The position numbers and the translations under genes are program-made. From assembly GCF_001482285.1 (NCBI RefSeq), contig NZ_LOEP01000003.1, positions 1 to 64,000 of the forward strand: a DNA stretch of 64,000 bases, read 5' to 3'. Position 1 is the first letter of the stretch. Each line of letters opens with the position of its first letter. Positions 2,659 through 56,524 of the stretch are shown here, piece by piece. The DNA is from Haloferax sp. Q22 (lineage in GTDB: Archaea > Halobacteriota > Halobacteria > Halobacteriales > Haloferacaceae). Under the pieces are notes generated by a model, which worked only from the letters and a program-made list of their open reading frames with translations, did not search any database and was not told the origin of the DNA.

Positions 2659-2805
2659 GTACCGTCGGTTGCATTCCGGGGCTATGTGTCTTGTGGGTTA
2701 CACCGTCACACGGTGTCCCGAGGCCGGAGGCTGCCACAAAATGACGGGCCATCACGCCGGGCGACGAATCGCCATCCGTTTGTACCTCCCCGAGAAGACT
2801 CGGGT

Positions 2806-3204
2806 ATGAGCGAGACCATCGACGAGGACCTCTACCAGCGGACCCTCGCGCTGCTCGAACCCGGCGATATCGAACTCGTCGGGGCCATCGTCCACACCGA
2901 CCTCACCAGCCGCGAGGACCTGGAGATGCAGGAGTTGACCGTCGAAATCAACGAAGTCATCGCCGAGCACGCGGGGAAGGGCGACGCGTGGATTTACGCC
3001 GGCAACGATGACACCGACTTCTCGTCCAACCAGTTCCAAGGGCTCTCGGTCGAGGACGACGAGTTCGTCTGGGAGTGCCAACAGCTCGTCCGCGACGGCA
3101 CGTTCGACCTCGTGTTCTACTACGAAGCCATCGCCGACCACGACGCCATCGTCGAGGGCCTCGAAGCGCTCGACGACGTCGACCGCGTCACGCCGGTTCC
3201 CTGA
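2806..3204 (+). CDS. conserved haloarchaeal protein, DUF5778-like
   Basis: A 132-residue acidic cytoplasmic protein, divergent from uppS. The start is the ATG at 2806, just after a typical short upstream region; longer readings upstream run antisense through uppS and are shadows. The sequence (EDLYQRTLALLEPGDIELVG, then a Phe/Trp-rich acidic half) matches my memory of the haloarchaeal DUF5778 family, whose function is unknown. No catalytic motif is visible. Confidence 0.72.
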   Translation: MSETIDEDLYQRTLALLEPGDIELVGAIVHTDLTSREDLEMQELTVEINEVIAEHAGKGDAWIYAGNDDTDFSSNQFQGLSVEDDEFVWECQQLVRDGTFDLVFYYEAIADHDAIVEGLEALDDVDRVTPVP

Positions 3205-3368
3205 GCGCGGCGGCGACTCGACGACGAGACACCTCTTTTACTTCGTGAGCGAGGGCACTCGCTCCGCCCGTGTCGGCCGTTCACCGGCGGCTCGCCGGGC
3301 GTTCACCTCGGTTCATCGCAGTGAGAACAAGCGAGGCGTTTATCCGCCTCGCATCCCGAGTGACGCGC

Positions 3369-4430
3369 ATGATACAGGCGGACGCGGACCTCTCTCGTCT
3401 CGACCGCGCCATCGTCAACGCCTTCCAGGGCGGCTTCCCCGTCGTCGAACGTCCCTTCGAGCCCGCGGCGGCCGCACTGCGCGAGCGGGGCGTGGACGTG
3501 TCGGCGGCCGACCTCTGCGAGCGGGTGCGGACGCTCGACGAGGAAGGCGTTCTCTCCCGGTTCGGCGCGCTCGTCAACGCCGAGGAAATCGGCGGCACGG
3601 CGACGCTCGTCGCCATGCACGCGCCACCGGAGCGGTTCGACGAGGTGGCCGAGCAGGTGAACGCCCACCGCGAGGTCGCGCACAACTACGAGCGCGAGCA
3701 TCCCCACCTGAACATGTGGTTCGTCGTCTCGGTCGCCGAGGCGTCGCGGGTTGACGAGGTGCTCGGCGACATCGAGGACGAGACGGGCCAAGCGACGTAC
3801 AACATGCCCAAGCGCCGCGAGTTCCACGTCGGCGCGAAGTTCCTCCTCGACGGACCCATCTCGGACGGCGACCTCGACCTCTCGCAGCTCGGCCCCGACG
3901 TGGAGCCGACAGACGCGCGCACCCTGACGCCCGACGAGCGCGACCTCGTCATGGAGATTCAGGGCGGCCTACCGATTACGGAGACGCCCTACGCCGACGT
4001 GGCCGAGGCCATCGGACAGAAGCCGGCGTGGGTCGTCGAGACCATCAAGCGGTTCAATCTTGAGGGGAAGGTTCGCCGCGTCGGCGTCATCCCGAACCAC
4101 TACGCGCTCGGCTACTCGGAAAACGGGATGACCGTCTGGAACGTCCCCGACGACCTCGTGACGGAGGTCGGCCCCGAAATCGCCTCGCTGGACTTCGTCA
4201 CCCACTGTTACCGCCGGCCGCGACACGAGGGCGTCTGGCCGTACAACTTCTTCGCGATGACCCACGGCCGCTCCGAGGAGGAGAGCGAGGCCCGCATCGA
4301 ACAGGTGCGCGAGGTCATGGGCGACTACTGGGACGTGGGTGACGACGACTGGGACACCCTGTTCTCGACGCGCATCCTGAAGAAGACGGGAATCAGACTG
4401 GACGAACGAGCCGAGGCGAACACGGAGTGA
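3369..4430 (+). CDS. ahbB: siroheme decarboxylase, AhbA and AhbB fused (Lrp/AsnC-like)
   Basis: A 353-residue protein with two tandem Lrp/AsnC-like halves, each a winged helix (residues about 8-60 and 190-245) followed by an alpha/beta domain with the motifs AHNYEREHPHLNMWF and THCYRRPRHEGVWPYNFF. These His/Arg blocks mark siroheme decarboxylases AhbA and AhbB, which remove acetate side chains of siroheme in the alternative heme pathway. Here both halves are on one chain. It is followed at 1 base by precorrin-2 dehydrogenase and then hemA, so the operon makes tetrapyrrole. The start is the ATG at 3369, after a TATA-like stretch near 3338. Confidence 0.85.
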   Translation: MIQADADLSRLDRAIVNAFQGGFPVVERPFEPAAAALRERGVDVSAADLCERVRTLDEEGVLSRFGALVNAEEIGGTATLVAMHAPPERFDEVAEQVNAHREVAHNYEREHPHLNMWFVVSVAEASRVDEVLGDIEDETGQATYNMPKRREFHVGAKFLLDGPISDGDLDLSQLGPDVEPTDARTLTPDERDLVMEIQGGLPITETPYADVAEAIGQKPAWVVETIKRFNLEGKVRRVGVIPNHYALGYSENGMTVWNVPDDLVTEVGPEIASLDFVTHCYRRPRHEGVWPYNFFAMTHGRSEEESEARIEQVREVMGDYWDVGDDDWDTLFSTRILKKTGIRLDERAEANTE

Positions 4431-29711: not shown

Positions 29712-30380
29712 ATGAAGCTGAGCCTGCTTTCGGATATCCACGGTAACTTGCCTGCGTTCGAAGCTGTCCTCAGGGATATGCCGGAGGACGTCGAGGAGAT
29801 AGTCTGCCTGGGGGACGTAGTCGGTTATGGGCCGTGGCCTCGTGAGTGCGTGGAACTGGTGCAGAAGCACTGTTCTATTGTTGTCCAGGGGAACCATGAT
29901 AGAGAGGCGGTGCAGGATCCGAGTGTCTATAAGAGGAATAGTCAGGCGTATAGAGGCCTTTTGCACGCCGAGGAGGAGTTGATCAACGCAGATCTGGCGT
30001 GGTTGGGAAGTCGACCTCAGAAAACGGAGTACAACGAGGACATCTTACTGGTTCACAGTCATCCGGAGAAAGTTGATTACCATGTTTATCCCAGGGATTT
30101 TGCCGAGGTTGCACGGTACATCGATGGGTATAGGGCTTGTTTCCTCGGTCACAGCCATATTCAGCATTTTGAGGTGTTGAATGCAAAGCTGATTTTGAAT
30201 CCGGGTAGTGTCGGCCAGCCTCGAGACGGCGACAGTCGGGCAGGGTATGCGGTTGTTGGTACTGAGTCGTGGGATCTAGATCTGCGCCGTGTCGAGTACG
30301 ATATCGGAAGGGTGCGGGACAAGGTGGATGAGGTTGGGTTTCCGCCGGAAGTGGGGGAGCGTCTGGAGGAAGGACGATGA
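29712..30380 (+). CDS. calcineurin-like metallophosphoesterase
   Basis: 222 residues with all five metallophosphoesterase motifs: SDIHGN (8-13), GDVVGYGP (34-41), GNHDRE (60-65), HSHPE (about 115) and GHSHIQ (about 146), then NPGSVGQPRDGD typical of the YfcE/MJ0936 branch. These are two-metal phosphodiesterases or phosphatases; nucleic acid or cyclic nucleotide substrates are possible. First gene of a three-gene operon, overlapping the next by four bases (ATGA). Confidence 0.92.
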   Translation: MKLSLLSDIHGNLPAFEAVLRDMPEDVEEIVCLGDVVGYGPWPRECVELVQKHCSIVVQGNHDREAVQDPSVYKRNSQAYRGLLHAEEELINADLAWLGSRPQKTEYNEDILLVHSHPEKVDYHVYPRDFAEVARYIDGYRACFLGHSHIQHFEVLNAKLILNPGSVGQPRDGDSRAGYAVVGTESWDLDLRRVEYDIGRVRDKVDEVGFPPEVGERLEEGR

Positions 30381-32945: not shown

Positions 32946-33240
32946 TTCCCGGTTTACTGAGGAATCTCTGTTCACGTATATCGGTGATCCCGAAGATCAG
33001 AACATGGTACGGCTGGAGAAGGGTGATGTCGTCCGTTATGAGAAGTATGGGAAGGAGATGGAGGCCTTCTTCGTAGCGGCTGAACCGGATACGAATGCGG
33101 TTAAGATCCGGAAGGCTTCGGATACCTTCGATTACATCACGTTAGAGAGTATCAAGGAGAAGGTCGAAGACCCGGAGATCAGTGAAGGCTTCATCGACGA
33201 ACAAGACCTGGAAGAGGTGAGAATCAGTAGTGGGCGATGA
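32938..33240 (+). CDS. paralogue A of 33.0/41.6 kb pair, beta-rich domain
   Basis: 100 residues: FTEESLFTYIGDPEDQNMV, then GDVVRYEKYGKEMEAFFVAA, a small beta-barrel-like unit. The first 80 residues are nearly the same as those of the 199-residue protein at 41573-42172, and the DNA is also close to identical over more than 100 bases, so this is a recent duplication in which this copy is shorter. Function unknown. GTG start with eight-base overlap. Confidence 0.75.
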   Translation: MSDSRFTEESLFTYIGDPEDQNMVRLEKGDVVRYEKYGKEMEAFFVAAEPDTNAVKIRKASDTFDYITLESIKEKVEDPEISEGFIDEQDLEEVRISSGR

Positions 33241-34852: not shown

Positions 34853-35072
34853 GCCTGAATGTAGGGAAGTTTTCGATGACTTTGATGGCAGGCTGTATCA
34901 GCAGTCGCAGCTTGAGGGTATAGCGGTTAGGTGTCCTCACTGTGAGATGCCTACTCAGCTTGTTTCCATTCTTGGTTCAAGGCCTGGAAGATGTTTGAGT
35001 TGCGGCCTACCCATCGAGGTCGAGGTGCAGGTGACGTATCCTGAGGGAAAATCGAAAGACGACAGCCTCTAA
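34845..35072 (+). CDS. zinc-ribbon protein
   Basis: 75 residues with a ribbon VRCPHCEMPTQLVS and GRCLSCGLPIEVE. Last gene of the 31.64-35.07 kb operon, converging on the FtsZ-like gene: the two stop codons overlap (35069-35072). A T-run at 35079-35085 may end the transcript. Confidence 0.7.
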   Translation: MTEPECREVFDDFDGRLYQQSQLEGIAVRCPHCEMPTQLVSILGSRPGRCLSCGLPIEVEVQVTYPEGKSKDDSL

Positions 35073-35872
35073 TCTTCTTTTTTCCGGGAGAAGAAGCTGC
35101 TCTCTCGTATGTTCACACTCTCGCTATCTTGTCCGAGGTTTTGGTCCTCTGTTTCTTTCCAGTCTAGGTTTTCTTCGAGGCCTTGGTAGGTGACGAAGTG
35201 CTTGAAGTGAGGGGTTCCTGTGTATCGGGGGTGGATTCTTTGATCCCAGAGCACGTTGACGTCGTCAGGAAAGCTGTATTCCTCGAGTTTGGAATGAATC
35301 TTTTCCGTCGACTGTTTTTCTCCGCTGCACAGGAACAGTAGGACGGATTCAGGGTTTTCGCAGTTTCTGAGCGAGGTAAGTGGGTACGGACTTTTGTTTC
35401 GAGGGGTGTCGATGAACAGCTCCGAAACCAGTCCTTTGCCGGCGAAGATTTTGATGTCACCGTGGCCGAGATCGTGGACTGTCATCGGCATCATTGACTC
35501 GAAGACATCGGCTATGGCAGCTGAGATGAATCCCTGGAACAGGTAATCTACTTCGACGGGAACTAACAGGTTTACCTCGTCGACGAGCTCGGGTAATTGT
35601 GTAAGGCCTTCAGCGAAGAGTATGGAGATTCCTTGGTTGCGGTGGAGAAGTTCTCGGATCTGGTTCTCTGCGTCAGGTTCGGATAGGTCTGCGGATAGGA
35701 AGAAGAAGTCGTTTTCCTGGACGTCTTTGAAGCAGGCTGCGAGCTGTGGCTCTGTTCGTGCAGTGTAGCAATTGGCCTTGGTCTCTGTGTCGATGTTCCG
35801 GACTGCTTTCACCCCTGTCTCTCCTACTCCGATTACGGAGACACTGGGAGCCCACGAAGGTTTACCCGTCAT
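35069..35872 (-). CDS. FtsZ/tubulin-fold-like protein without GTP signature loop, copy 1
   Basis: 267 residues that line up with FtsZ by eye: a Rossmann start VSVIGVGETGVKAV (11-24) like the T1 loop; FFFLSADLS (about 69-77) where FtsZ has its strand before GGGTGTG, but that signature is replaced by LSEPDA; the helix-strand DEVNLLVPVE; the block FISAAIADVFESMMPMTVHDLGHGDI aligned with the FtsZ T7 region, keeping two aspartates; and C-terminal strands ESVLLFLCSG and VNVLWDQRI. Nucleotide binding is doubtful. The start overlaps its partner gene by four bases. Copy 2 is at 44458-45252. Fold call is inference. Confidence 0.65.
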   Translation of the reverse strand: MTGKPSWAPSVSVIGVGETGVKAVRNIDTETKANCYTARTEPQLAACFKDVQENDFFFLSADLSEPDAENQIRELLHRNQGISILFAEGLTQLPELVDEVNLLVPVEVDYLFQGFISAAIADVFESMMPMTVHDLGHGDIKIFAGKGLVSELFIDTPRNKSPYPLTSLRNCENPESVLLFLCSGEKQSTEKIHSKLEEYSFPDDVNVLWDQRIHPRYTGTPHFKHFVTYQGLEENLDWKETEDQNLGQDSESVNIRESSFFSRKKED

Positions 35873-36216
35873 TTGTAAACGGTTTTCCGGGAGAGGACGA
35901 GAACGTATCTTCCGCCTTCATCGGGTTCCTGCCTGTTTTCCGGTGTGTAGGCCTTTCTCTCGATGTCACTGGGTAGTTCGTCGTGGAGTTTCGCTCCTTT
36001 CTCCGCCAGGTCTTGGAACTGGCTGTGGGTGAGGACGTAAGGAGTTCCGTCGACGGGCGTGGCTACGAAGAAGAATTTGACCGAGTCCTGCCCTCTTTGT
36101 TCGTCTTCATCGAATTGTGCGGTGAGCCAGGTCTCTTCCTCGTCGACGTACCCGTACTTCTCCTCGACGGCAAGTAGTTGTGAGAGTTTTCTGACGTCAG
36201 CGACTTCGTCTTCCAT
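35869..36216 (-). CDS. partner of FtsZ-like protein, copy 1
   Basis: 115 residues from the ATG at 36216: helical start (DVRKLSQLLAVEEKYGYVDE), a strand-rich middle (VKFFFVATPVDGTPYVL), then QFQDLAEKGAKLHDELPSD. Homologous along its length to 45245-45595. First gene of a two-gene minus operon with the FtsZ-like protein, under shared promoter site 3. The function is unknown; fixed pairing suggests the two products act together. Confidence 0.72.
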   Translation of the reverse strand: MEDEVADVRKLSQLLAVEEKYGYVDEEETWLTAQFDEDEQRGQDSVKFFFVATPVDGTPYVLTHSQFQDLAEKGAKLHDELPSDIERKAYTPENRQEPDEGGRYVLVLSRKTVYK

Positions 36217-36229
36217 ACCTACCAGTACG

Positions 36230-36247
36230 TTTAGGCAGACGCATAAA
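36230..36247 (-). promoter_or_regulatory. shared inverted-repeat promoter element, site 3
   Basis: On the minus strand AATTTATG-CGTCTG-CCTAAA, ending 13 bases before the ATG at 36216. The TATA-like half is about 28 bases from the start, so this mRNA may be leaderless. Drives FtsZ-like module 1. Confidence 0.7.
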
Positions 36248-36321
36248 TTCTGAGGTTCCCTCAACAGCGAATCCGGGCCTCTGAAATACAATTAAAAAGA
36301 CGGCGAGGAAATACTGAAGCA

Positions 36322-36708
36322 GTGACTGACGAGTTCTCTTTCGATGCGGCAAGAAGGATTCTCGAGTCTGAAGACGTCTACAGCACCAACGATCTTGATG
36401 TCAGTGAGCGCCGTTTCTATACAGGTCTTGGCAGTACTCGTTTGGAGATCCAGTATTTCTACGGCGATGAATTGGCGGTAGGTGAGTACCACGAGAAGAC
36501 TCACGGTAGGGAGTACGTGGTGAAAACCCGTTTCTGTGTTTCAGAGGATCTGGAGGAATGGACGCCGTATCAGTTGAAAACGGAGGACGGCAGTGTGTAC
36601 GAGATCAGTGAGGATGAAGAATTGCTGGACGCGACTTTTGAGCAGATGAGGGAGTGGGATAACCGTCTTCAGGACGAGTTTCCTTCAGGCATAGTTACCA
36701 GGGTTTAG
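36322..36708 (+). CDS. third gene of FtsZ-like module, copy 1
   Basis: 128 residues, alpha/beta: DEFSFDAARRILESEDVYS, then RRFYTGLGSTRLEIQYF and WTPYQLKTEDGS. Divergent from the FtsZ-like pair and homologous end to end to 45701-46087. TTAAAAA at about 36292 is 27 bases before the GTG, so leaderless. The conserved divergent arrangement in both copies suggests a shared function or regulation. Family not recognised. Confidence 0.75.
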   Translation: MTDEFSFDAARRILESEDVYSTNDLDVSERRFYTGLGSTRLEIQYFYGDELAVGEYHEKTHGREYVVKTRFCVSEDLEEWTPYQLKTEDGSVYEISEDEELLDATFEQMREWDNRLQDEFPSGIVTRV

Positions 36709-37316: not shown

Positions 37317-37487
37317 ATGCCAGCGGTCTACTGCGATTACTGCGATCAAGGATTCGAGCAGAAAACAGCAGCAGCTGAACACGAGGAGAAAGAGCACTCA
37401 GATGGCGAAGAAAAACTGCTACACGCCAGAATCCCTGGAGTCGCCGGTCTCTATCACATGTTCTCTTGGATTCGGAAAAGGACTTGA
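37317..37487 (+). CDS. small C2H2 zinc-finger protein
   Basis: 56 residues from ATG 37317: a C2H2-like finger YCDYCDQGFEQKTAAAEHEE with the second His after EKEH, then a short basic tail. CTTTTAAAAA at 37284-37293 is about 28 bases upstream, so leaderless. Its 3' end overlaps the convergent gene at 37454 by 34 bases. Haloarchaea have many such mini-proteins. Confidence 0.6.
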   Translation: MPAVYCDYCDQGFEQKTAAAEHEEKEHSDGEEKLLHARIPGVAGLYHMFSWIRKRT

Positions 37488-38248
37488 GCAGAGTGTTGGG
37501 CTTGTTCTCGGTAGTCTTCCATCTCTTCCTCGGTAATACTGGTTTCTATGGAGTGGGCCTCTGCGTTCGCATCCTGTCGGAAAGAATCCAGTTCGTCGAT
37601 GAAATCGCTGTCAAGGCCTGAAGACAGATGTTCGAAGTCGCCTAAGTTTTTCTCGAAGTTGCTGATGAGTGTGCTGAAGTTCTGAAACCGTCTGTTGTCC
37701 GGGAGGTAGTACAGATCTATCTCTTGTTTCCCGTACTCCTTCCGGAGGATGTCGATGATCAGGTTTTCCAGTAGTTTCCGTGTCAAGACGAGCGTGGCGT
37801 CGTTAACCCCGAGGCTGTAGCACTGGTTGATGTCGTCGACGAGATCTGGATAGAATGTACCTGGGACGTTGTTGATGTCGATAAACTGTTCGGAGCGGAA
37901 TGCGGTGTGGAGAACTTCTGTACCGGGATTCTGGTTTTCCAAGATTTCTAGAGCCGGGTATTTTTCCAGGGTATCCGTGTCGGTGTCGGCCAATGTGTAG
38001 ATCCGTTTCATGACTCCGACTGCTTTGTCTTCGTCTTCCTCGGCTACTTCTCTGAGAAACTGGGTTGTGTTGGCTTGTTGGTCGTTGTCCCTGTGGTCCC
38101 AGCTGGCGTGGAACCGGTCGATATCTTTCAGGGTGTCGTTGACGCCGAACTCTGTAGCAGCCATCACCCAGTCGTTAGTATCTAAGTCTGTACTAACGGC
38201 AAACCGGGAGAACTGACCGATAAGAGCCTCCATAGGATTCTGAGACAT
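37454..38248 (-). CDS. DUF4145/HEPN-like protein
   Basis: 264 residues. The C-terminal 130 residues resemble DUF4145/HEPN proteins: LVDDINQCYSLGVNDATLVL, then TRKLLENLIIDILRKEYG and the late FRQDANAEAHSIE, where HEPN-type proteins carry the conserved R/N/H residues. N-terminal half is helical and unassigned. HEPN proteins often act in RNA cleavage and defence; that is inference. Single minus-strand gene divergent from the HTH gene at 38339. Confidence 0.72.
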   Translation of the reverse strand: MSQNPMEALIGQFSRFAVSTDLDTNDWVMAATEFGVNDTLKDIDRFHASWDHRDNDQQANTTQFLREVAEEDEDKAVGVMKRIYTLADTDTDTLEKYPALEILENQNPGTEVLHTAFRSEQFIDINNVPGTFYPDLVDDINQCYSLGVNDATLVLTRKLLENLIIDILRKEYGKQEIDLYYLPDNRRFQNFSTLISNFEKNLGDFEHLSSGLDSDFIDELDSFRQDANAEAHSIETSITEEEMEDYREQAQHSAQVLFRIQENM

Positions 38249-39703: not shown

Positions 39704-40393
39704 ATGGAATTACCAGGATCAGAAGACAAGACGTATGATGATATCTTAGAGCTCATCGACGAGTGTCGAGAGCAGGACAAACTTCTCAAAATCAAGGTTG
39801 ACGCCACCAAACACCAAGACGCTGAGTATCAGGACGTCTACGCCACGAAACTGTATGATATTCCTGAGAAAGACGGGGAGATGTTCATGACCTACGCCAC
39901 AGGGAAAGTATTCAATAAAGAGGGTTTCTGGTCGGAGAAGGCGCTTCACGACATGATGAAGCACCAGTACGAAGCTGAGGTCATCGACATCACCGACATT
40001 GAAGACGACGATGTGAAGTCCAGGTTGAAGAGCTGGATGCTGAAGGGAAACCCTCTGCAGGAGGTCCACGTCTTCGTGAAGCACAGGGACGACGGCAGGT
40101 ATAAAGACGAGTGGCAGTACCAGCGAGGTCCTGACGAGGAGACTATAAGGGAAAACGAAGGTCTTCCAGAGCCAGGTTCAGGTCAAGAACCGGTCTACAT
40201 CCATCTCGGCTCCTACCGTGAAGTCAGGGAAAACGCTGAAGAACTTGCTGAGGAGCATGACTTCGACTACAGGAAAGAGGCCGAAGGAGCTCGTAAACTT
40301 GTAGAGCAGGCAGGCCTTCAGCTTGGCACTCACGGTATTCAGATCCTCAAAGATGAACTGGAAGACGAGGATGCAGAGGGTGATAAGAACTGA
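39704..40393 (+). CDS. unknown alpha/beta protein
   Basis: 229 residues, acidic, with strand-rich regions (LLKIKVDATKHQDAEYQDVY; EVHVFVKHRDDGRYKDEWQY) and a helical tail. Unrecognised. ATG starts five bases after the previous stop. Its end (GGTGATAAGAACTGA) is shared in sequence with the end of the gene at 49330-49527 because both precede duplicated segments. Confidence 0.72.
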   Translation: MELPGSEDKTYDDILELIDECREQDKLLKIKVDATKHQDAEYQDVYATKLYDIPEKDGEMFMTYATGKVFNKEGFWSEKALHDMMKHQYEAEVIDITDIEDDDVKSRLKSWMLKGNPLQEVHVFVKHRDDGRYKDEWQYQRGPDEETIRENEGLPEPGSGQEPVYIHLGSYREVRENAEELAEEHDFDYRKEAEGARKLVEQAGLQLGTHGIQILKDELEDEDAEGDKN

Positions 40394-40812
40394 TTTCTGA
40401 CGATGAGAAGATCCGGCGTATTGAGAACATAGAAGGCGTCTACTTCAACATTCACGCGAAGAACCGGGCAAAGCATCGTGTCGGACTCAACCCGTGGACG
40501 CCGAAAGAGTACGAGGAAAAGATCGTCAAGCAGGAACCCGACTTTTACTGGGATAGTGAGTACGAGAACTACCAGGCTGTTTTCGAGGAAGTGGTGTTCC
40601 CGTTTTCCTTGGAACTGCATGATGACCGGCCAGGGCTCTTGGCAAAAGCTGAGTCAGCACTGCCTCCTCAGGACGGTTACCGAGAGGAGAATGACCGTTT
40701 CACCTTGTTGAAGAGGGGGAGCGGTTCGAGTGCTCGCAGACCGAGAGATAAGGTCTCGTTGGAAGCAACAGCAGATATTGAACGGGAAAGCGTAGGAGGT
40801 GGTAGCTCTTGA
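40390..40812 (+). CDS. duplicated-segment gene 1, CTG start, copy A
   Basis: 140 residues from CTG 40390 (CTGA overlap, 6 bases after GGTGA). No standard start exists before residue 68. The reading is supported by copy B at 49524-49928, where the same residues (ISDDEKIRRIENIEGVYFNI) are kept with synonymous differences. The C-terminus differs after the LLKRG block, where copy A has shifted frame relative to copy B. Function unknown. Confidence 0.72.
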   Translation: MISDDEKIRRIENIEGVYFNIHAKNRAKHRVGLNPWTPKEYEEKIVKQEPDFYWDSEYENYQAVFEEVVFPFSLELHDDRPGLLAKAESALPPQDGYREENDRFTLLKRGSGSSARRPRDKVSLEATADIERESVGGGSS

Positions 40813-40964
40813 AGCGGTTTCTGTTGGTGACGAATGCCGGTGCAAGCGGTTCTACCTGGCATATCTTTAGAAAAGGTGAGGAAGAGTGTATCTGCAGGAC
40901 CCATTCGCATATCGGTCTGAATCGGAACACGCCGAAGAAGCAGGTGAGAATCCTCAGTGAGTGA
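40809..40964 (+). CDS. duplicated-segment gene 2, truncated copy A
   Basis: 51 residues from TTG 40809 (TTGA overlap): KRFLLVTNAGASGSTWHIFR, then CICRTHSHIGLNRNTPKK. Identical to the first 45 residues of the 123-residue protein at 49944-50315, but here the frame ends early and lacks the C2H2 finger. The break point coincides with the end of the duplicated DNA, so this copy is probably a remnant. Confidence 0.65.
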   Translation: MKRFLLVTNAGASGSTWHIFRKGEEECICRTHSHIGLNRNTPKKQVRILSE

Positions 40965-41580: not shown

Positions 41581-42172
41581 TGCAGAAAACAGCTCCAAGT
41601 TTACTCAGGAGTCCTTGTTTACGTATATCGGTGATCCGGTAGAGCAGAACATGGTTTTCCTGGAGAAGGGTGATGTCGTCCGTTATGAGAAGTATGGGAA
41701 GGAGATGGAGGCCTTCTTCGTAGCCGCTGACCCGGATACGAACGAGGTCAAGATCCGGAAGACCGACGATTTCTATGATTACATCAAGTTAGAGAGTATC
41801 AAGGAGAAGGTCGAAGACCCGGACATCCAGGAAGGGTTCATCCCGGAACGAGACCTGGAAAAGAGGCCGGAGTTGAGCGATGAAATCAGTGTAGACTGGT
41901 TGGGAGGAGGCCTGGAGATCACTGTCTCGGAGTTCGAGATCCCGGAAGGTACTATCGAAATCTTGGTCGGGTACAACACACCGGTTATCGGGACGAGAAA
42001 TTACGAGCACCTGCTTTCGGAGGCCCATCTGACACTTGCTGGTCCGAAAACTCTCAACCGGCGGTACAGATACAGCACGAGACTGGCAAACCTGAACGAC
42101 CTATTGGAGGACAGTAACGAGGCCTACCCGTTGCATCCAGTAGCAGCTGCACGAGGTGACAAGCCAGAGTGA
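41573..42172 (+). CDS. paralogue B of 33.0/41.6 kb pair, extended
   Basis: 199 residues. Residues 8-90 match the protein at 32938-33240 almost exactly; residues 100-199 add a second beta-rich domain (ISVDWLGGGLEITVSEFEIP, then VGYNTPVIGTRNYEHLL). The extra domain shows what the shorter copy lost or never had. Function unknown. Overlaps the preceding gene by eight bases. Confidence 0.75.
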   Translation: MSDAENSSKFTQESLFTYIGDPVEQNMVFLEKGDVVRYEKYGKEMEAFFVAADPDTNEVKIRKTDDFYDYIKLESIKEKVEDPDIQEGFIPERDLEKRPELSDEISVDWLGGGLEITVSEFEIPEGTIEILVGYNTPVIGTRNYEHLLSEAHLTLAGPKTLNRRYRYSTRLANLNDLLEDSNEAYPLHPVAAARGDKPE

Positions 42173-43519: not shown

Positions 43520-43554
43520 CACTATTCTGGTTGCAGTACGTGTATCATTACAGG

Positions 43555-44229
43555 ATGACTGAGGCAGTCGTCAGTGAATCGCGCGGGATAGAAGACCGGA
43601 ACCGCTGCAGTCTACCTACGCGCCTGGCCGAGGAGTTGGGGAAGGAGCCGGGGAGCCACGTCAAGGTAGAAGGCGAGTTGAAGGCCTACTTCGTCGTCGA
43701 CGACGTCCACGAAAACAGTTCGGAAGAGGTCAGGGTGGCAGCTGAAGGCCTGGACAGGATCAAGTCCGAATCCGGGGAGCAGGTAGAGATCTCTGCGACG
43801 GTTCCGGACTCGAGTTATGCAGAGGCTTGGAAAACAGCTGGTTTCTACGAGTCACTGTTGGAGTCGGAGGGAAGCGAGGTTTTCATCTCTTGTCCTCACG
43901 GCGGGGATGCGGAGAAGAACACTGACGTGATGGGTCGCCACCTCTGCCAGATGCTACGGGAAAACAGTGTAGGTGCTTCGGCGTGGCTGTGCCAAGGATT
44001 TGATTCAGGATACGACGGTAAGGATTCGTACAGTCGCTGGCATTTGAAGAAGCCGGTGAAGGCCTTCGATGCGTACCCTAAACTGGAAGGTATCAAGGAC
44101 CGGCGTTTCGATTATGTCGTCGGGTTCCACCTGCAACAGAAGGATAACAGCACGGTGATGGGTTGGTGGTCAGGCCTCAGACAGTCTACGAAGATCTGTG
44201 GCAGAATCGATTCAAGAGAAGTTGGGTAG
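43555..44229 (+). CDS. poly-gamma-glutamate hydrolase-like zinc peptidase (DUF867 type)
   Basis: 224 residues. The N-terminal DRNRCSLPTRLAEELGKEPG region and the zinc-binding block FISCPHGGDAEKNTDVMGRH match the gamma-PGA hydrolase family of phages and haloarchaea, with YVVGFHLQQKD near the C-terminus supplying a later His. These enzymes cleave gamma-linked glutamate polymers; Natrialba-type haloarchaea make such capsules. In a mobile element it might open host surface polymer. I start at the ATG at 43555 because it sits right for promoter site 5. Confidence 0.7.
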   Translation: MTEAVVSESRGIEDRNRCSLPTRLAEELGKEPGSHVKVEGELKAYFVVDDVHENSSEEVRVAAEGLDRIKSESGEQVEISATVPDSSYAEAWKTAGFYESLLESEGSEVFISCPHGGDAEKNTDVMGRHLCQMLRENSVGASAWLCQGFDSGYDGKDSYSRWHLKKPVKAFDAYPKLEGIKDRRFDYVVGFHLQQKDNSTVMGWWSGLRQSTKICGRIDSREVG

Positions 44230-44413
44230 TTATGCGGATGTCGCCTGGAAGTACAGCGAGTTTGCTTTGACCGGGAGAGGAGACAAAAACTCGGTGAATT
44301 ACTTCACGAAAGACGGTCAGGGCCTTCAGATAGAGATGCCGCCGAAAGTGTGCCGAAACAAGTTCAAAACCGTGCCGAGGGCGGTCAGGAATGTTTTGAC
44401 GGAGCTTGTTTAG
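44198..44413 (+). CDS. small protein, unknown
   Basis: 71 residues from GTG 44198, overlapping the previous gene by 32 bases, which is longer than usual here, so the true start may lie later. Basic C-terminal half (PPKVCRNKFKTVPRAVRNVL). Unrecognised. Confidence 0.55.
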   Translation: MAESIQEKLGSYADVAWKYSEFALTGRGDKNSVNYFTKDGQGLQIEMPPKVCRNKFKTVPRAVRNVLTELV

Positions 44414-44457: not shown

Positions 44458-45252
44458 CTAATCGTTTTTTCTCCGGAGGAAGTCGATATCGTCGACAGTG
44501 ATCTCTCCACGGCCTCCGATTTCCTCCTTGTCTTCCCAGTTGAAGTTGTCTTCCTGGGCTTGGTATGTGACGATGTATTTGACGTGCGGTGTTCCGATGT
44601 ACCGGGGCTCGATCCTTTGATCCCAGAGCAGGTCAACACTGTCCGGGAAGCTGTATTCCTCTATCTGGTTCCGGATCTTTCCTTGGTCTTGCTTTTCGCC
44701 GCTGCAGGCAAACAGTAGAATACTTTCCGGGTTCTCACAGTCCTTCAGTGTCGACAGGGGGTACGGTTGCTTGTTGTTTGGAGTATCGATGTACAGTTTT
44801 CCAACCCGGTTTTCCCCTGCAGTGATTCTCACATCGTTGTGTCCGAGGTCGTGGACGGTCAACGGCATCATGCACTCGAAGAGATCGGCGATGTAGGAGG
44901 AGATGATGCTCCGTGGCAGGAACTCGGCTTTGACCGGGATCAACAGGTTCAATTCACTGACCAAGTCCTCCGGTAGGCTGTGGACGCCTTCAGCGAAAAG
45001 CACGGAGACACCGGTGCAGTGTTGAAGCAGGGTCTGGACCTGGCTTTCAACTTTTTCTTCGTTGAGGTCGCCGGAGAGGAAGAGGAAGTCGCTTTCCTCG
45101 ACGTCCTTGAAGCAGGCCTCCAGTTCTGGTGTAGAGTTGACGGTGTAAAGGTTGACGTCGGCTTCGGTGCCGATCATCTCGACGGTTTCCGAGCCTGTTT
45201 CTCCGAGGCCGATTACGGTGACGTCTTGCTTCCAGACAGGGCTGTCAGTCAT
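44458..45252 (-). CDS. FtsZ/tubulin-fold-like protein without GTP signature loop, copy 2
   Basis: 264 residues from ATG 45252. Same features as copy 1: VTVIGLGETGSETV, FLFLSGDLNEEKV where GGGTGTG is expected, ISSYIADLFECMMPLTVHDL followed by GHNDVRI, SILLFACSG and VDLLWDQRI. The HDLGHxD block is identical in both copies, so it is probably functional. The last 20 residues differ. It overlaps its partner gene by eight bases. Confidence 0.65.
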   Translation of the reverse strand: MTDSPVWKQDVTVIGLGETGSETVEMIGTEADVNLYTVNSTPELEACFKDVEESDFLFLSGDLNEEKVESQVQTLLQHCTGVSVLFAEGVHSLPEDLVSELNLLIPVKAEFLPRSIISSYIADLFECMMPLTVHDLGHNDVRITAGENRVGKLYIDTPNNKQPYPLSTLKDCENPESILLFACSGEKQDQGKIRNQIEEYSFPDSVDLLWDQRIEPRYIGTPHVKYIVTYQAQEDNFNWEDKEEIGGRGEITVDDIDFLRRKND

Positions 45253-45610: not shown

Positions 45611-45628
45611 TTTAGGGAAATGCCTAAA
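45611..45628 (-). promoter_or_regulatory. shared inverted-repeat promoter element, site 6
   Basis: On the minus strand AATTTAGG-CATTTC-CCTAAA, 15 bases before the ATG at 45595; the same position as site 3 in module 1. The inner halves form a perfect TTTAGG/CCTAAA inverted repeat. Confidence 0.7.
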
Positions 45629-45700
45629 TTCTTCTGTATCCTTTCTTCTCCGCACAGCGAGGGGTTAGTTAGAAAAGACTCGAGTGAACGTTGTTACGTA

Positions 45701-46087
45701 GTGGCTGATAGGTTCTCGTTCGATACGGCAAGAAGTATTCTCGAGTCCGAAGATGTGTACAGCCGTGAGGACTTGGAGGTCAGTGAGCGACGTTTCTATA
45801 CCGGTGTTGGCAGTACTCGTTTGGAGATCCAGTATTTCTACGACGATAGAATGGCAGTAGGAGAGTACCATGAAGAGGCGTTGGGCCGGGAATATGTGGT
45901 GAAGACCCGTTTCTATGTTTCAGAGGATCTGGAAGAGTGGACGCCGTACCAGTTGGAGACTGAGGACGGTAATGTGTCCGAGATCGATGACGATGAGGAG
46001 CTTTTGGAGGCTACGTTGGAGCAGATGAGAGAGTGGGATAACCGTCTTCAGGATGAGTTCCCTTCAGGGGCTGTAACTCGGATCTGA
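45701..46087 (+). CDS. third gene of FtsZ-like module, copy 2
   Basis: 128 residues from GTG 45701, fixed by alignment with the paralogue at 36322 (RFSFDTARSILESEDVYS). A longer reading from 45620 adds residues absent from the paralogue and crosses the promoter. TTAGTTAGAAAAG near 45665-45677 would make it leaderless. Divergent from the FtsZ-like pair as in module 1. Confidence 0.75.
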   Translation: MADRFSFDTARSILESEDVYSREDLEVSERRFYTGVGSTRLEIQYFYDDRMAVGEYHEEALGREYVVKTRFYVSEDLEEWTPYQLETEDGNVSEIDDDEELLEATLEQMREWDNRLQDEFPSGAVTRI

Positions 46088-47388: not shown

Positions 47389-47576
47389 CGTGGACGTGCC
47401 AGAAATGCGGGAAGAATCACAGCGACCGGCATGTTGAAGAAGAGCTCAGTAAGGAAGAGATAGACGGCTGGCACTTCCCAAGTATACCAGACTCGGATAC
47501 TGTTGAAGGCTGGATATGCGACAGATGCGGAAAACGCCACCCGACCCCAGAAAGAGCGCCAGGTGATATGGAGTGA
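47385..47576 (+). CDS. zinc-ribbon protein
   Basis: 63 residues with CQKCGKNHSD (5-14) and CDRCGKRHPT (near 45-54): two matching CxxCGKxH halves of one zinc site. GTG start overlaps the previous stop, and its end overlaps the ATPase gene, by four bases. Confidence 0.72.
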   Translation: MTWTCQKCGKNHSDRHVEEELSKEEIDGWHFPSIPDSDTVEGWICDRCGKRHPTPERAPGDME

Positions 47577-49333
47577 GCAACGGGCAGATAGAGCTTGGAG
47601 AAGTATCCTTTAATCCTGCGGAGATTCAGGATTTCAGGCTTTCTGTGGAAGGAACGAGTGATACTGGAAAGACTAATTCGTTAGCCGTTATCCTTGAGGA
47701 TCTGGCCGAGGTCAGCATACCGACGTTGATTGTGGAGCGTGTCGGCGCTCTCTCCACGGTCAGACACGAGGACGATGATATCGTTGTAGTCGGTGGGAAG
47801 GAAGAGGAGGCAGTTGATCTTGTAGTTCCTTTCCAGGAGCTGGACCAGATAGGTAACTGGGTCTTAGATAAGGGGATGAAAGTCCTTCTCGACGTCTCCA
47901 CCTACTCGGACTACAGTCAAGAGGAAAGCCGGATTCACGAGGCAGCTGGGAAAGCCGTCCGCTCCTTGAATGACCGCGCCCATGAGAAGTACAGGGCAGG
48001 GAGCAGGACGAAGTCGCTGCTTGTTATCGATGAGGCCCATTACATGGCTCCGAAGGATAACGCTCCAGAACCGGATCTGGATGACAACGTGAAGATGTGC
48101 AGAGGCCAGATCATCAAGGCCTGTACCGAGGGAGGGAACAAAGGAATCTCAACGATTGTCTCCTACCAGAGAAGAGCCTTCCTTCACAACGGTGTTATCT
48201 CCCTGTGTAAGGACTGGATTGTCCACGGATTGGCGAACGAAGACGCCCAGAAGGTAGCGAAGAAGCTGAATATCGACAGAGACCTCATCGACCAACTTGG
48301 CGTCGGAGAGATCTTGGCTCGTGGAGATAACTTGACCGGTGGAGACTTGGTCGGGCCTACGAAGGTCCGGAAAAGACGCAGTCCTGATCCTCGTGAGGAA
48401 GAGTTCGAGATCCCTGAGACCAGTGCAGAGAAGCAGGAGGTTCTCAGTGAGATTCAGGAGTCGATCGAGGAGCGAGTAGAGGAGCGTGAAGAGAAGAAAA
48501 GCCGGGTAGAGCAGCTTGAGGAGAAGGTCGAGCAGCTCCAGGATGAGAAGGAGGAGATGCAGGAGGCCTTGGAGAACCGTGAGGAGCTCCGGAAGGCGTT
48601 GAAAGGCCTTGACGAACCTGATTCTTCTTCAAGTAGTGATGTAAAAGAGATCTCTGAAAGAGCTGAGGAATTGGAGGAAGAGAACGAGAAGCTCCGTAGG
48701 AAGCTCGATGAGAAAGAAGAGAGCTTGGAGATGCTGAAGCATGAGTACGAGAATTTGAAGGAGGAGTACGACGGCTTAGAGGAGAAGTACGAGTCCCGTC
48801 TTCAGGGTTTGAACTCGCTGCGTTCTGCGTTCCAGCAGTTGGGTCTTGCCTCTGAGGGTGAAGTCCCTGTGGAAGGCGGCGTTTCTGAGGATGATGTCGA
48901 GAATATTGTCGAGGACAAGCTCAGTGATTTCGACGCTGGTTCGACCGGAGGATCTGTTTCCGATATCGAGGATCTCGTGCTTTCAGATTTCCAGGAAGAG
49001 GCAGTGAACAGCTTGATGGATGAGGTCGAAGACCTGTCCGAGCGACAGAGGAAGCTGCTGTTGTTCATCGAGGCGAAAGGGAAGACCTTCTCCTCAAAAA
49101 AGGAGTGGGCTAATGGAGCTGTCGGCTACACAGATGGTGATGTCTACAGCGATATGAGTGATTTAGAGGATAGAGGCTTCGTCCAGAAGAATGCGGACGG
49201 TAGTATCAAACCTGCTACGGAGCAGAAAGTCAGAGACGAGTTGAGTCCTTACGATCCTGAGGACAGCGACGTTGAGGATGTGAAGAAACAGCTTCTGCAG
49301 AAAATCAACGGAGGAGGTGAAAATTCGGAGTGA
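47573..49333 (+). CDS. HerA/FtsK-superfamily ATPase with long coiled coil
   Basis: 586 residues. Walker A is EGTSDTGKTNS (about 26-36), Walker B is SLLVIDEAHYM (about 146-156), followed by the VSYQRRAFLHNGVI region typical of DUF87/HerA-type ATPases of archaeal viruses and plasmids. About residues 285-430 form a highly charged coiled coil; the C-terminal 110 residues include a winged-helix-like segment (LLLFIEAKGKTFSSKKEWAN). HerA-type motors translocate DNA or help package it. This is the best candidate for a packaging or segregation motor here. GTG start, four-base overlaps at both ends. Confidence 0.85.
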   Translation: MSNGQIELGEVSFNPAEIQDFRLSVEGTSDTGKTNSLAVILEDLAEVSIPTLIVERVGALSTVRHEDDDIVVVGGKEEEAVDLVVPFQELDQIGNWVLDKGMKVLLDVSTYSDYSQEESRIHEAAGKAVRSLNDRAHEKYRAGSRTKSLLVIDEAHYMAPKDNAPEPDLDDNVKMCRGQIIKACTEGGNKGISTIVSYQRRAFLHNGVISLCKDWIVHGLANEDAQKVAKKLNIDRDLIDQLGVGEILARGDNLTGGDLVGPTKVRKRRSPDPREEEFEIPETSAEKQEVLSEIQESIEERVEEREEKKSRVEQLEEKVEQLQDEKEEMQEALENREELRKALKGLDEPDSSSSSDVKEISERAEELEEENEKLRRKLDEKEESLEMLKHEYENLKEEYDGLEEKYESRLQGLNSLRSAFQQLGLASEGEVPVEGGVSEDDVENIVEDKLSDFDAGSTGGSVSDIEDLVLSDFQEEAVNSLMDEVEDLSERQRKLLLFIEAKGKTFSSKKEWANGAVGYTDGDVYSDMSDLEDRGFVQKNADGSIKPATEQKVRDELSPYDPEDSDVEDVKKQLLQKINGGGENSE

Positions 49334-49527
49334 GTCGTTTAGATGAGTTCTATGACTGGCTTGAGGACCAGAGTTACTGGGTGAAGAAGTCCGAGGTCAA
49401 CGAGAAGTTCCCAGGAATCGAGTTCAAGGAATCGACCGGTGTCACAATGAAGAAAGACGATGAGGGAGACTGGTTGATACCACGTCGAGACCTTCGAGCT
49501 TTAGCCAAAGAGGGTGATAAGAACTGA
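49330..49527 (+). CDS. small protein, unknown
   Basis: 65 residues, charged and helical with several Trp and Tyr (EFYDWLEDQSYWVKKSEVNE). Unrecognised. GTG start overlaps the ATPase stop by four bases; the end GGTGATAAGAACTGA begins the duplicated segment shared with 40.38 kb. Confidence 0.65.
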   Translation: MSRLDEFYDWLEDQSYWVKKSEVNEKFPGIEFKESTGVTMKKDDEGDWLIPRRDLRALAKEGDKN

Positions 49528-50075
49528 TTTCTGACGATGAGAAGATCCGGCGTATAGAGAATATCGAAGGTGTCTATTTCAATATTCACGCGAAGAATAG
49601 GGCGGAGCACCGTGTCGGGTTGAATCCGTGGACGCCGAAAGAATACGAGGAAAGGATCGTCGACCAGGAACCTGATTTCTACTGGGATAGTGAGTACGAG
49701 AACTACCAGGCTGTTTTCGAGGAAGTGGTGTTCCCGTTCTCCCTAGAGCTGCATGATGATCGGCCAGGGCTCATGGCCCGAGTCGAATCAGCGCTGCCGC
49801 CTCAGGACGGTTACCGAGAGGAGAATGACCGTTTCACCTTGTTGAAGAGGGGGGAGCGGTTCGAGTGCTCACAGACCGAGAAACAAGGTCTCGTTGGAAG
49901 CAACAGCAGATATCGAAAAGAAAACTGACGGAGGTGAGAGCTCTTGAAGCGGTTTCTGTTGGTGACGAATGCCGGTGCGAGCGGTTCCACCTGGCATATC
50001 TTTAGAAAAGGCGAGGAAGAGTGTATCTGTAGGACCCATTCACATATCGGTTTGAACCGGAACACGCCGAAGAAG
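49516..50075 (+). repeat. duplicated segment, copy B (copy A at 40381-40945)
   Basis: About 560 bases closely similar to 40381-40945, from the shared GGTGATAAGAACTGA to the CCGAAGAAG just after the short Gly/Asn-rich block. Differences are mainly at third codon positions, with a small frame-altering change near 40725/49855. It carries two genes in the same order. Confidence 0.8.
49524..49928 (+). CDS. duplicated-segment gene 1, CTG start, copy B
   Basis: 134 residues from CTG 49524 (CTGA overlap, 6 bases after GGTGA). First standard start in frame is TTG 49620, which would lose 32 residues conserved with copy A. After the LLKRGERFECSQ block its C-terminus differs from copy A because of a frame change in one copy. 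Function unknown. Confidence 0.72.
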   Translation: MISDDEKIRRIENIEGVYFNIHAKNRAEHRVGLNPWTPKEYEERIVDQEPDFYWDSEYENYQAVFEEVVFPFSLELHDDRPGLMARVESALPPQDGYREENDRFTLLKRGERFECSQTEKQGLVGSNSRYRKEN

Positions 50076-50315
50076 AAGGTCAACGAGGAAAAGTTGGTGA
50101 ACCTGCTTCAGAACGATGAAACTCCCGGCCTCGGAAAGTGGGCAGGGAAATGCCGTAGAAGGGCCTTGGAGGAGTTGACCGGGGAGAAACAGTTCTCCTG
50201 CAAGGTATGCGGACAAGGTATTTCGAATCGTTCAGGCCTGATCTCACATATCAACGGTAGGCACGGAAAATCGATGGATGTAGCTAAAGAAATAGCGGCG
50301 AAAGGTGGTGCCTGA
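49944..50315 (+). CDS. C2H2 zinc-finger protein, full-length copy B
   Basis: 123 residues from TTG 49944. N-terminal 45 residues with CICRTHSHIG, a helical linker (GLGKWAGKCRRRALEELTGE) and a clear C2H2 finger FSCKVCGQGISNRSGLISHI ending GRHG. Probably DNA-binding. GGTGA is 5-10 bases upstream. The truncated copy at 40809 lacks the finger. Confidence 0.75.
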   Translation: MKRFLLVTNAGASGSTWHIFRKGEEECICRTHSHIGLNRNTPKKKVNEEKLVNLLQNDETPGLGKWAGKCRRRALEELTGEKQFSCKVCGQGISNRSGLISHINGRHGKSMDVAKEIAAKGGA

Positions 50316-51870: not shown

Positions 51871-53157
51871 ATGAAGAAGTCTCTGCGGCAGAACCTGAGG
51901 GACCTTGACCGGGAGGAATATGAGATTCTTCGGAGGATGTCCAGGCTCTCCAAGAACCTGTACAACGTACATCTCTACGAGGTCAGGCAATACTTCTTCG
52001 ACAACGGAGAGTATCTGAACTACTACAACACCTACGAGCGGATCAAGAATAACGAGAACTACGAGGAACTGCCTTCTCAGGTTGCTCAGCAGACGATGAA
52101 ACAGGTAGACAAAGGCTTCAAGTCCTTCTTCAAACTAGTAGAGAAAACGCGGGAAGGAAAATACAACGAAGAAGTCAACATCCCCGGATATCTTGAGAAA
52201 GACGACTTCTACCTACTTGATTTTCCGAGTCAGGCGTTCCAGATGAAAGAGGATTATATCCGGGTTGGTGTACCGAAGCAGTTCAGGGAAGAATACGGAT
52301 TCGACCGGAAAGAAGTTCGTATACCGTTCACATATGATGAGGTCCGGGAGAAGGAGATTAAGCGGTTGCAGATCCTGCCGCAGTCCGACGCGGAGTATTT
52401 CGAGTACCGAGTCGTCTATGAGCAGGAAGTTGAGGAAGTAGAGACCGAGGAAGGTACGTTCCTGTCTTTGGATCTTGGTGTGGATAACTTGGCAGCGTGT
52501 GTTGACCATTCTGGACGCTCATTCATCTTGGATGGGCGAGAGCTCAAATCACTTAACAGATGGTACAACAAACGCAAGGCCAAGCTCCAGAGTATCAAGG
52601 ACAAGCAGGGTATCGATGGAGAAACTCAGCGGATGCAGCGACTACGGAGAAAACGAGAGAACAAGGTTCACGACTACCTCAACAAAGCCGTTCGTGGCTT
52701 GGTTGATTACTGTGTTGAGCACCGGATTGAGAAAGTGATTGTCGGGGACGGCAAGGGTTGGAAACAGGACGTAGATCTCGGAGACCAGACGAACCAGAAT
52801 TTTGTCTCTATCCCGCATGACAAGTTCAAGCAAAAGCTCAAACACAAACTGGAAGAGAATGGAATTGAGTTCGAGCTACAGAACGAGGCTCACACCAGTA
52901 AATGCAGTTTCCTCGACGATGAAGCTGTAGAGCACCACGAGAAGTACGTTGGTAGTCGTGTGGAACGCGGTCTTTTCAAGGCGAGTGATGGCACCGAGGT
53001 CAATGCTGATGTGAATGCTGCTGCGAATATCGCTAAAAAGCACATAGGTAAGCCAAATTCAGAGCTTTTCAGCTCTGAGGATGGTGTAGAGAGCGTTGTG
53101 GACACACCGAAACGGATAAGGAAACCTGACTTCACTCAGGTTAAGATGGCAGTATGA
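51871..53157 (+). CDS. tnpB: TnpB-family RNA-guided nuclease (IS200/IS605, no TnpA)
   Basis: 428 residues, IS605 OrfB/TnpB. RuvC residues: Asp201 in [11 protein letters not shown] and Asp380 in [10 protein letters not shown]. The position of the usual RuvC-II Glu reads VGDGKGW (around 293), without Glu; Glu339 in [13 protein letters not shown] is the likely substitute, as in TnpB lineages with a relocated Glu. The four-Cys zinc finger is reduced. Such proteins cut DNA under guidance of an RNA from the element's right end. No tnpA is present, so it depends on a transposase in trans or is only domesticated. Confidence 0.92.
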
Positions 53158-55731: not shown

Positions 55732-56102
55732 AGCGGAATACTGCGGCGTATGCGTTCGACAGGATTGAGCATTACCAGGACTTGTTCGGCGTCGACGACG
55801 AGCAGATGGGAGTACTGTTGGATCCTTGGTACAACGAGTTTGAGGATATCGCCAGCGACGAGAGACTTTCTGAAGGAGAGGAGCACTGGGAGCTCTTGGT
55901 CTATGCGACGAACGCTGAGTGGTTGAGAGACTCTGAGATGGATGCTACTGCGAATATGACCTTGACGATGGACTACCCGGAGACGGATGCGGAAGAGTTT
56001 CTGGGCGTAGTCTATCCTACCGCTGTCGAGATGTTCGAGGAAGAGTACGGCGAGGAAGTTGATTTCCTTGGCTACCCAGAGGTCCCAGATGAGTATATCT
56101 AA
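55722..56102 (+). CDS. paralogue 1 of a tandem pair, GTT start
   Basis: 126 residues from GTT 55722, 9 bases after GGTGA. The next standard start is TTG 55782. The longer reading is supported by the tandem paralogue at 56150: both begin with S-[LF]-x-x-R and align through the LLDPWYNEF/VMVDPVYLQ block. Acidic alpha/beta protein; the EFLGVVYPTAVEMFEEEYGE segment is shared. Function unknown. Confidence 0.68.
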   Translation, partial: VSLERNTAAYAFDRIEHYQDLFGVDDEQMGVLLDPWYNEFEDIASDERLSEGEEHWELLVYATNAEWLRDSEMDATANMTLTMDYPETDAEEFLGVVYPTAVEMFEEEYGEEVDFLGYPEVPDEYI

Positions 56103-56149: not shown

Positions 56150-56524
56150 TTGAGTTTTGACGAACGACACAAATCAGAGATCTCGAACCATCTCGAGCAT
56201 TTCCGAATGGCTCACAGCCTCGACTATGACGATCTAGCAGTAATGGTCGATCCTGTCTATCTGCAGGGGGAGGACCGAACTGACCGATTTATCCCAGAAG
56301 ACGAGTACTGGGAAGTCACAGTCTACGCTTCTAACAAGGAGTGGATCGAGGACTCTGACAAAGGCGAGCACCCGGAGAAAATGATACAGTACACTTTCGA
56401 GGATACTGACTCGGAGGAGTTTCTGGAGGATGTGTACCCTGATATCGTGGAGACCTTCGAAGAGAAATACCGTGGTAGAGTAGGGCAGCTTTCCATCCCC
56501 GATGAACCAGAATACTCGCTGTGA
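56150..56524 (+). CDS. paralogue 2 of a tandem pair, TTG start
   Basis: 124 residues from TTG 56150, starting SFDERHKSEISNHLEHFRMA. Same fold pattern as the upstream paralogue: hydrophobic VMVDPVY, WEVTVYASNKEWIEDSD, then EEFLEDVYPDIVETFEEKYR. Last gene of the rightward block; converges on the minus-strand gene ending at 56534. Confidence 0.7.
   Translation: MSFDERHKSEISNHLEHFRMAHSLDYDDLAVMVDPVYLQGEDRTDRFIPEDEYWEVTVYASNKEWIEDSDKGEHPEKMIQYTFEDTDSEEFLEDVYPDIVETFEEKYRGRVGQLSIPDEPEYSL

Follow-up and report, generated by a model that had tools for sequence, protein, structure and literature searches.

A putative pseudo-GTPase related to haloarchaeal FtsZ1, encoded twice on an acquired element of Haloferax sp. 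Q22

The stretch of Haloferax sp. Q22 DNA analyzed here (the window, 64,000 nucleotides of a 71.5-kb contig) encodes two copies of an FtsZ-like protein in which the GTP signature is replaced by an acidic segment. Such a protein, which we call pseudo-FtsZ, raises two questions: whether it is truly kin to FtsZ, and what an FtsZ relative might do once its nucleotide-binding loops have gone. The GC content of the window is ~68% up to 24 kb and ~50% after, the mark of an acquired element, and both copies lie in the latter part.

A three-gene module within a larger duplicated block

Each pseudo-FtsZ gene belongs to a three-gene set, at 35.07-36.71 and 44.46-46.09 kb (Table 1), that also comprises a partner gene on the same strand and a divergent gene of 128 codons. 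As the initial annotation had it, all six genes are open reading frames, and their order and the TATA-like motif AGAATTTA recur in both sets; a TATA-like motif ~28-30 nt before the start is the expectation for a haloarchaeal leaderless promoter. The partner and pseudo-FtsZ frames overlap by 4 bp in copy 1 and by 8 bp in copy 2. Between copies, identity is 54% for pseudo-FtsZ (across 267 columns), 81% for the 128-codon genes and 47% for the partners, and dN/dS is 0.24, 0.13 and 0.53, respectively; dS between the pseudo-FtsZ copies is 0.9-1.5, with a resemblance far above chance. Both pseudo-FtsZ copies are under purifying selection, and the values for pseudo-FtsZ and the 128-codon genes together imply that these genes are maintained, not decaying.

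Table 1. Features of the module, the duplicated block and a neighboring gene (window coordinates)
Feature	Position	Strand	Evidence
Pseudo-FtsZ copy 1, 267 aa	35069..35872	-	ORF; profile homology to FtsZ1 and second GTPase-less FtsZ-like family
Pseudo-FtsZ copy 2, 264 aa	44458..45252	-	ORF; similarity to copy 1
Partner copy 1, 115 aa	35869..36216	-	ORF
Partner copy 2, 116 aa	45245..45595	-	ORF; similarity to copy 1
128-codon divergent gene copy 1, GTG start	36322..36708	+	ORF
128-codon divergent gene copy 2, GTG start	45701..46087	+	ORF; similarity to copy 1
TATA-like promoter motif AGAATTTA, 28 nt upstream of partner copy 1 start	36244..36251	-	Sequence
TATA-like motif AGAATTTA, 30 nt upstream of partner copy 2 start	45625..45632	-	Sequence
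T4-equivalent segment LSEP instead of GGGTGTG, copy 1	35675..35686	-	Joint alignment with FtsZ1
T4-equivalent segment LNEE, copy 2	45055..45066	-	Joint alignment
T7-equivalent DLGHGD, copy 1	35456..35473	-	Family (A1) alignment and joint alignment
T7-equivalent DLGHND, copy 2	44833..44850	-	Family (A1) alignment and joint alignment
D3 repeat, left end of duplicated block	32947..33216	+	Repeat search, 86% identity to mate 41594-41863
D3 repeat, second copy	41594..41863	+	Repeat search
D1/D4 repeats, right end of duplicated block	40375..40945	+	88-91% identity to mate 49509-50080
D1/D4 repeats, second copy	49509..50080	+	Repeat search
Calcineurin-like metallophosphoesterase	29712..30380	+	PF12850, 5e-22

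The partner is shortened by an internal deletion in genome G239, the nearest relative, and was not found beside the pseudo-FtsZ relatives of other genomes, and the 128-codon gene occurs without pseudo-FtsZ in G026; neither gene is therefore obligatory. In its C-terminal half, the partner bears a weak likeness to the GcvT C-terminal barrel, over the final 44 residues of the latter (hhalign E 2e-5; 0 of 100 shuffles), a resemblance that was picked out of a 170-genome search and is for that reason a weak lead only.

Five repeats (D1-D5) lie in the same order in both halves of the region at a spacing of 8.6-9.4 kb, running from 32.9/41.6 kb to 40.9/50.1 kb, so that the module forms only a portion of a longer duplication. 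Of the duplicated module originally described, the two copies thus stand but the free-standing duplication does not: a ~9-kb block was duplicated in tandem and partly rearranged, or two related elements were joined. Unrelated genes, inserted or replaced, separate the shared parts. A search for a guessed repeat pattern found none. The G239 chromosome carries a syntenic element with one module copy.

Several other genes accompany the module. Just before pseudo-FtsZ copy 2, at 43531-44413, is a poly-gamma-glutamate hydrolase-like gene broken in two by a frameshift, its G239 counterpart being intact (286 aa); G349 and G107 likewise have homologues close to their pseudo-FtsZ genes or remnants. A HerA-like ATPase with a long coiled-coil-like region (47573-49333) has a relative in the G239 element, and the protein encoded at 37454-38248, which weakly matches an AbiJ N-terminal domain, is likewise conserved in G239. 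Further along are a TnpB-type OrfB_IS605 gene encoding a Cas12f1-like TNB domain (51871-53157) and two neighboring small paralogues, 38% identical (55782-56102 and 56150-56524). Elsewhere on the contig, at 66195-69964, a C5-cytosine methyltransferase with an EcoRII-C-like protein nearby (weak match) marks a possible restriction-modification locus.

Kinship with FtsZ1 and the missing nucleotide loops

Kinship was assessed with a family profile (A1) built from seven haloarchaeal pseudo-FtsZ relatives. Against 3,200 ORFs, a set selected to include FtsZ and CetZ loci and enriched for those of FtsZ, this profile matched, beyond its own members, nothing but FtsZ1 and a second GTPase-less family, at E 3.6e-7 to 4e-5. 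The profile of the second family retrieved FtsZ1 (2e-7), FtsZ2 and then four pseudo-FtsZ family members from this set; that of FtsZ1 reached pseudo-FtsZ only at E about 1, though ahead of every other ORF that remained. When 170 whole genomes were searched without selection, the five top matches of the A1 profile outside its own family all proved to be FtsZ1 (E 6e-4 to 9e-4), the aligned part comprising helix H7, the T7 loop and the C-terminal domain. The hhalign score of pseudo-FtsZ was 40 against FtsZ, with 20 as the highest of 20 column shuffles, and no better than shuffles against CetZ, which was rejected as an assignment. FtsZ was also the best PDB sequence match, weakly (E 0.046) and in three collinear segments.

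A joint alignment placed pseudo-FtsZ and haloarchaeal FtsZ1 (PF00091/PF12327) collinearly from T1 to S10, the strongest block, LWD[QR]RI[HE]xRY, falling on FtsZ1 strand S9, WGARI[HQ]xEY (e.g., WDQRIHPRY vs WGARIHEEY). The two share the GxGxxG of T1, helix H7, the second Asp of T7 and the WxxRIxxxY of S9. Together, the profile searches, including the comparison with FtsZ and CetZ that the initial annotation had suggested, and the joint alignment make it very probable that pseudo-FtsZ is related to FtsZ as that annotation supposed. Judged by sequence, it is a predicted pseudo-GTPase whose closest kin is FtsZ1.

Structure prediction was less informative. AlphaFold supplied with a four-sequence alignment gave a mean pLDDT of 47 (36 from a single sequence) and was confident only over ~residues 9-110 (pLDDT around 60-80), where the strand-helix order is compatible with the FtsZ nucleotide domain minus strand S3. 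With this low-confidence model (pLDDT 47), Foldseek returned generic alpha/beta proteins from the PDB, FtsZ being absent from the 50 best, and placed phage FtsZ at rank 30 and tubulin at rank 48 in a viral library. The tubulin strand order 321456 without S3 becomes a five-strand order common to generic flavodoxin-like folds, and S3 loss would account for the generic matches. Those matches could also be taken to indicate a non-FtsZ Rossmann protein with a GxGxxG loop, as a T1-like motif equally suits NAD binding. We consider this very improbable: profile searches in every direction named FtsZ, the similarity takes in H7, T7 and the C-terminal domain as well, and among other Rossmann families, the alternative the initial annotation had itself raised, none scored significantly.

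Loop assignments in pseudo-FtsZ rest on the joint alignment with FtsZ1, not on structure. Pseudo-FtsZ falls about 130 residues short of FtsZ1 in length. It has no T2, T3 or T6, just three residues of T5 are left, and T4 has become an acidic segment, with LSEP or LNEE standing where GGGTGTG would be. T7 reads xLG[HY]xD in 7/7 sequences vs the canonical NxDxx[D/E]; the position of SaFtsZ D210 is Gly, and that of D213 is Asp, in all seven. Both the loss of the GTP signature and the conservation at T7, first read from the two window copies, are thereby borne out. Neither canonical FtsZ GTPase motif, T4 GGGTG[T/S]G (PMC12583498) or T7 NxDxx[D/E], is present. In FtsZ, loops T1-T6 hold the phosphate, ribose and base of the nucleotide, and T7 Asp210 positions the catalytic water (PMC8936486); GTP is hydrolyzed only at the contact between subunits, where the T7 of one meets the nucleotide bound to its neighbor (PMC8936486, PMC4929429).

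The C-terminal ends of five of the seven relatives carry a short [FL][FL]xR-type motif (SFFSRKKED, DFLRRKND, QFFSRKD, QLLRK, RLLRS), which could be a docking peptide.

The initial annotation had likened the protein to the divergent FtsZl families of Makarova and Koonin and, through them, to membrane remodelling. Those families, FtsZl1 and FtsZl2, described in 2010, are like pseudo-FtsZ divergent members of the FtsZ superfamily, and FtsZl1 is also tied to phospho-signalling, via kinases, but both families retain GGGTG(S/T)G (PMC2875224). FtsZl1 has in addition a long coiled coil, ~1,000 aa and vWA-domain neighbors, and FtsZl2 has T1, T4, T6 and T7 motifs and a ~300-residue C-terminal region (PMC2875224). 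FtsZl1 was rejected because pseudo-FtsZ has 267 aa and no GGGTG(S/T)G, and no vWA domain was found among the neighboring genes scanned with Pfam; FtsZl2 was rejected because T4, T6 and the ~300-residue C-terminal region are absent. The plasmid segregation tubulins TubZ/RepX were rejected as well, the GTPase motif being absent and no partition gene being recognized among the genes scanned. The proposed kinship with FtsZl1/FtsZl2 consequently gives way to that with FtsZ1, and the membrane-remodelling role is not supported. Pseudo-FtsZ very probably belongs within the FtsZ/tubulin superfamily, outside FtsZl1, FtsZl2, CetZ and TubZ.

Relatives, a second family and neighboring phosphatases

The search for relatives covered 391 genomes from the class and 170 from the family, together with a plasmid collection. 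Full-length members were found in G239 (68%), G349, G236, a plasmid of Halarchaeum sp. CBA1220, whose protein is near-identical to that of G236, and G289, where ftsZ1 is located ~1.8 kb upstream of the gene and is separated from it by two others. G349 has a truncated remnant besides its full-length gene, and G107 has a remnant only; apart from remnants, these other genomes each carry one intact gene. The distribution is patchy and takes in chromosomes and plasmids. No family member was found in IMG/VR (queries included the HerA-like ATPase of the element and FtsZ1), in a phage collection or in two GTDB contig scans; all that the second of these scans yielded was a pair of second-family members. 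The pseudo-FtsZ proteins had no match in Pfam, NCBIfam, PHROGs or PADLOC (the NCBIfam leuB and pMurD2 matches were far below cut-off). A phage or defence-system assignment was considered and rejected.

The initial annotation had suggested that the two copies form a two-subunit filament or a receptor-like scaffold. Two conserved yet diverged copies and FtsZ-family ancestry would suit such a nucleotide-free filament or membrane scaffold; we nevertheless think it improbable, since the second copy belongs to a larger duplication, other genomes carry a single intact gene, the partner is truncated or not alongside in relatives, and the lost nucleotide face is half of the known filament interface. 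The mobile-element location and patchy distribution might instead point to a decoy in host-element conflict, i.e., an FtsZ mimic that titrates the inhibitors of rival elements or dodges an FtsZ-sensing defence. To our knowledge, no FtsZ inhibitors made by rival elements have been described in haloarchaea. FtsZ is a known phage target and defence cue (PMC13423816), but some relatives are chromosomal and PADLOC is silent, and we regard a decoy as quite unlikely.

The second GTPase-less family, found by the A1 profile, has members in Halomicrobium and Halohasta and in two other genomes; of the six members, two have a match to FtsZ_C (best E 2e-5). It is like pseudo-FtsZ in having a similar size, in missing the nucleotide loops and, in Halohasta, in adjoining a phosphatase, but its T7 motif is gone too and its S9 block is shorter. 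Two of the six, the 265-aa proteins of G098 and G216, have an FtsZ1-type N-terminus without a GTP or T7 motif; with the G098 N-terminus as query, FtsZ1-sized frames were matched in about 45 genomes. These two proteins apparently represent a second, separate loss of the FtsZ GTPase in haloarchaea.

Phosphatase genes recur in the neighborhood of both families. A metallophosphoesterase adjoins pseudo-FtsZ in G236/CBA1220 and in G349, and a degraded one overlaps the remnant in G107. In Halohasta, a dual-specificity phosphatase gene lies 27-31 bp from the second-family gene, which it closely follows in Halohasta salina (locus 2248-3372), and in G349 (C5:464001-484000), a Ser/Thr kinase, the truncated pseudo-FtsZ and a dual-specificity phosphatase stand in a row, the phosphatase 0.4 kb from the remnant. 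Genomes carry 7-14 metallophosphoesterases and 0-2 dual-specificity phosphatases; the chance probability per adjacency is an estimated 0.1-1%, roughly, and the two G349 loci are perhaps not independent. No phosphatase gene was seen beside the pseudo-FtsZ or second-family gene in G239, G289 or Halomicrobium, and the window's own metallophosphoesterase is 4.7 kb from pseudo-FtsZ.

These neighborhoods might mean that pseudo-FtsZ is a phospho-signalling scaffold, the regulatory or targeting subunit of a phosphatase, for which contact with FtsZ filaments would be unnecessary. That the adjoining phosphatases come from two unrelated families can be read for or against this, and the kinase near the G349 remnant agrees with it; the genomes with no adjacent phosphatase do not, and the conservation of T7 and the C-terminal face is left unexplained. 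On balance such a scaffold seems unlikely.

A candidate regulator of host FtsZ

Our preferred, tentative reading is that pseudo-FtsZ may be a GTPase-dead, FtsZ-binding regulator of host FtsZ1/FtsZ2 that caps or sequesters FtsZ; we hold this with somewhat less than even confidence, and the capping geometry and phosphatase control with less. The presence of T7, the absence of the pocket and the loss of the D210 equivalent favor one-faced FtsZ binding and, with it, capping or sequestration. In this reading, the GTP-binding parts of the fold were lost, the core sheet, helix H7, the T7 loop and the C-terminal domain persist, and it is through its T7 face that the protein would bind canonical FtsZ, on the side that bears the GTP. 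Without the water-positioning Asp, hydrolysis would not be triggered, and without a GTP pocket, no further subunit would be accepted; pseudo-FtsZ would then cap the filament or sequester GTP-FtsZ. Division would be held back while the element replicates or settles, and adjacent phosphatases might set the timing via phosphorylation.

There is precedent for capping or sequestration in ARC3 of plant chloroplasts, which contains an FtsZ-like domain (PMC4593956) and inhibits FtsZ-ring assembly (PMC13335998). This is a functional analogy, not a sequence comparison, and ARC3, unlike pseudo-FtsZ, is a plant protein with additional regions. Two small proteins, SulA and MciZ, block the assembly of FtsZ by sequestering or capping it (PMC4929429), but they have no homology to FtsZ and attach to its T7-side or C-terminal surface. 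Because they act on the opposite (T7-side) face, the proposed geometry is without exact precedent among those inhibitors.

A bolder scenario, which we think unlikely to hold in full, is that haloarchaeal mobile elements captured FtsZ1 and pared it down to a subunit with a dead GTPase but with T7 retained. On a signal under phosphatase control, this subunit would block the GTP face of the host's FtsZ and halt division, and the GTPase would have been lost on two or more occasions. A limited literature search found no described example of mobile elements controlling archaeal cell division. If true, the scenario would amount to a cell-cycle brake made from its own target. FtsZ-family members with the T7 side and without the nucleotide side would be natural separation-of-function proteins, and, with Haloferax volcanii as a practical test host, pseudo-FtsZ could serve as a tool for asking at which of its ends an archaeal FtsZ filament grows, how the two haloarchaeal FtsZs share their labor, and whether mobile elements control archaeal cell division.
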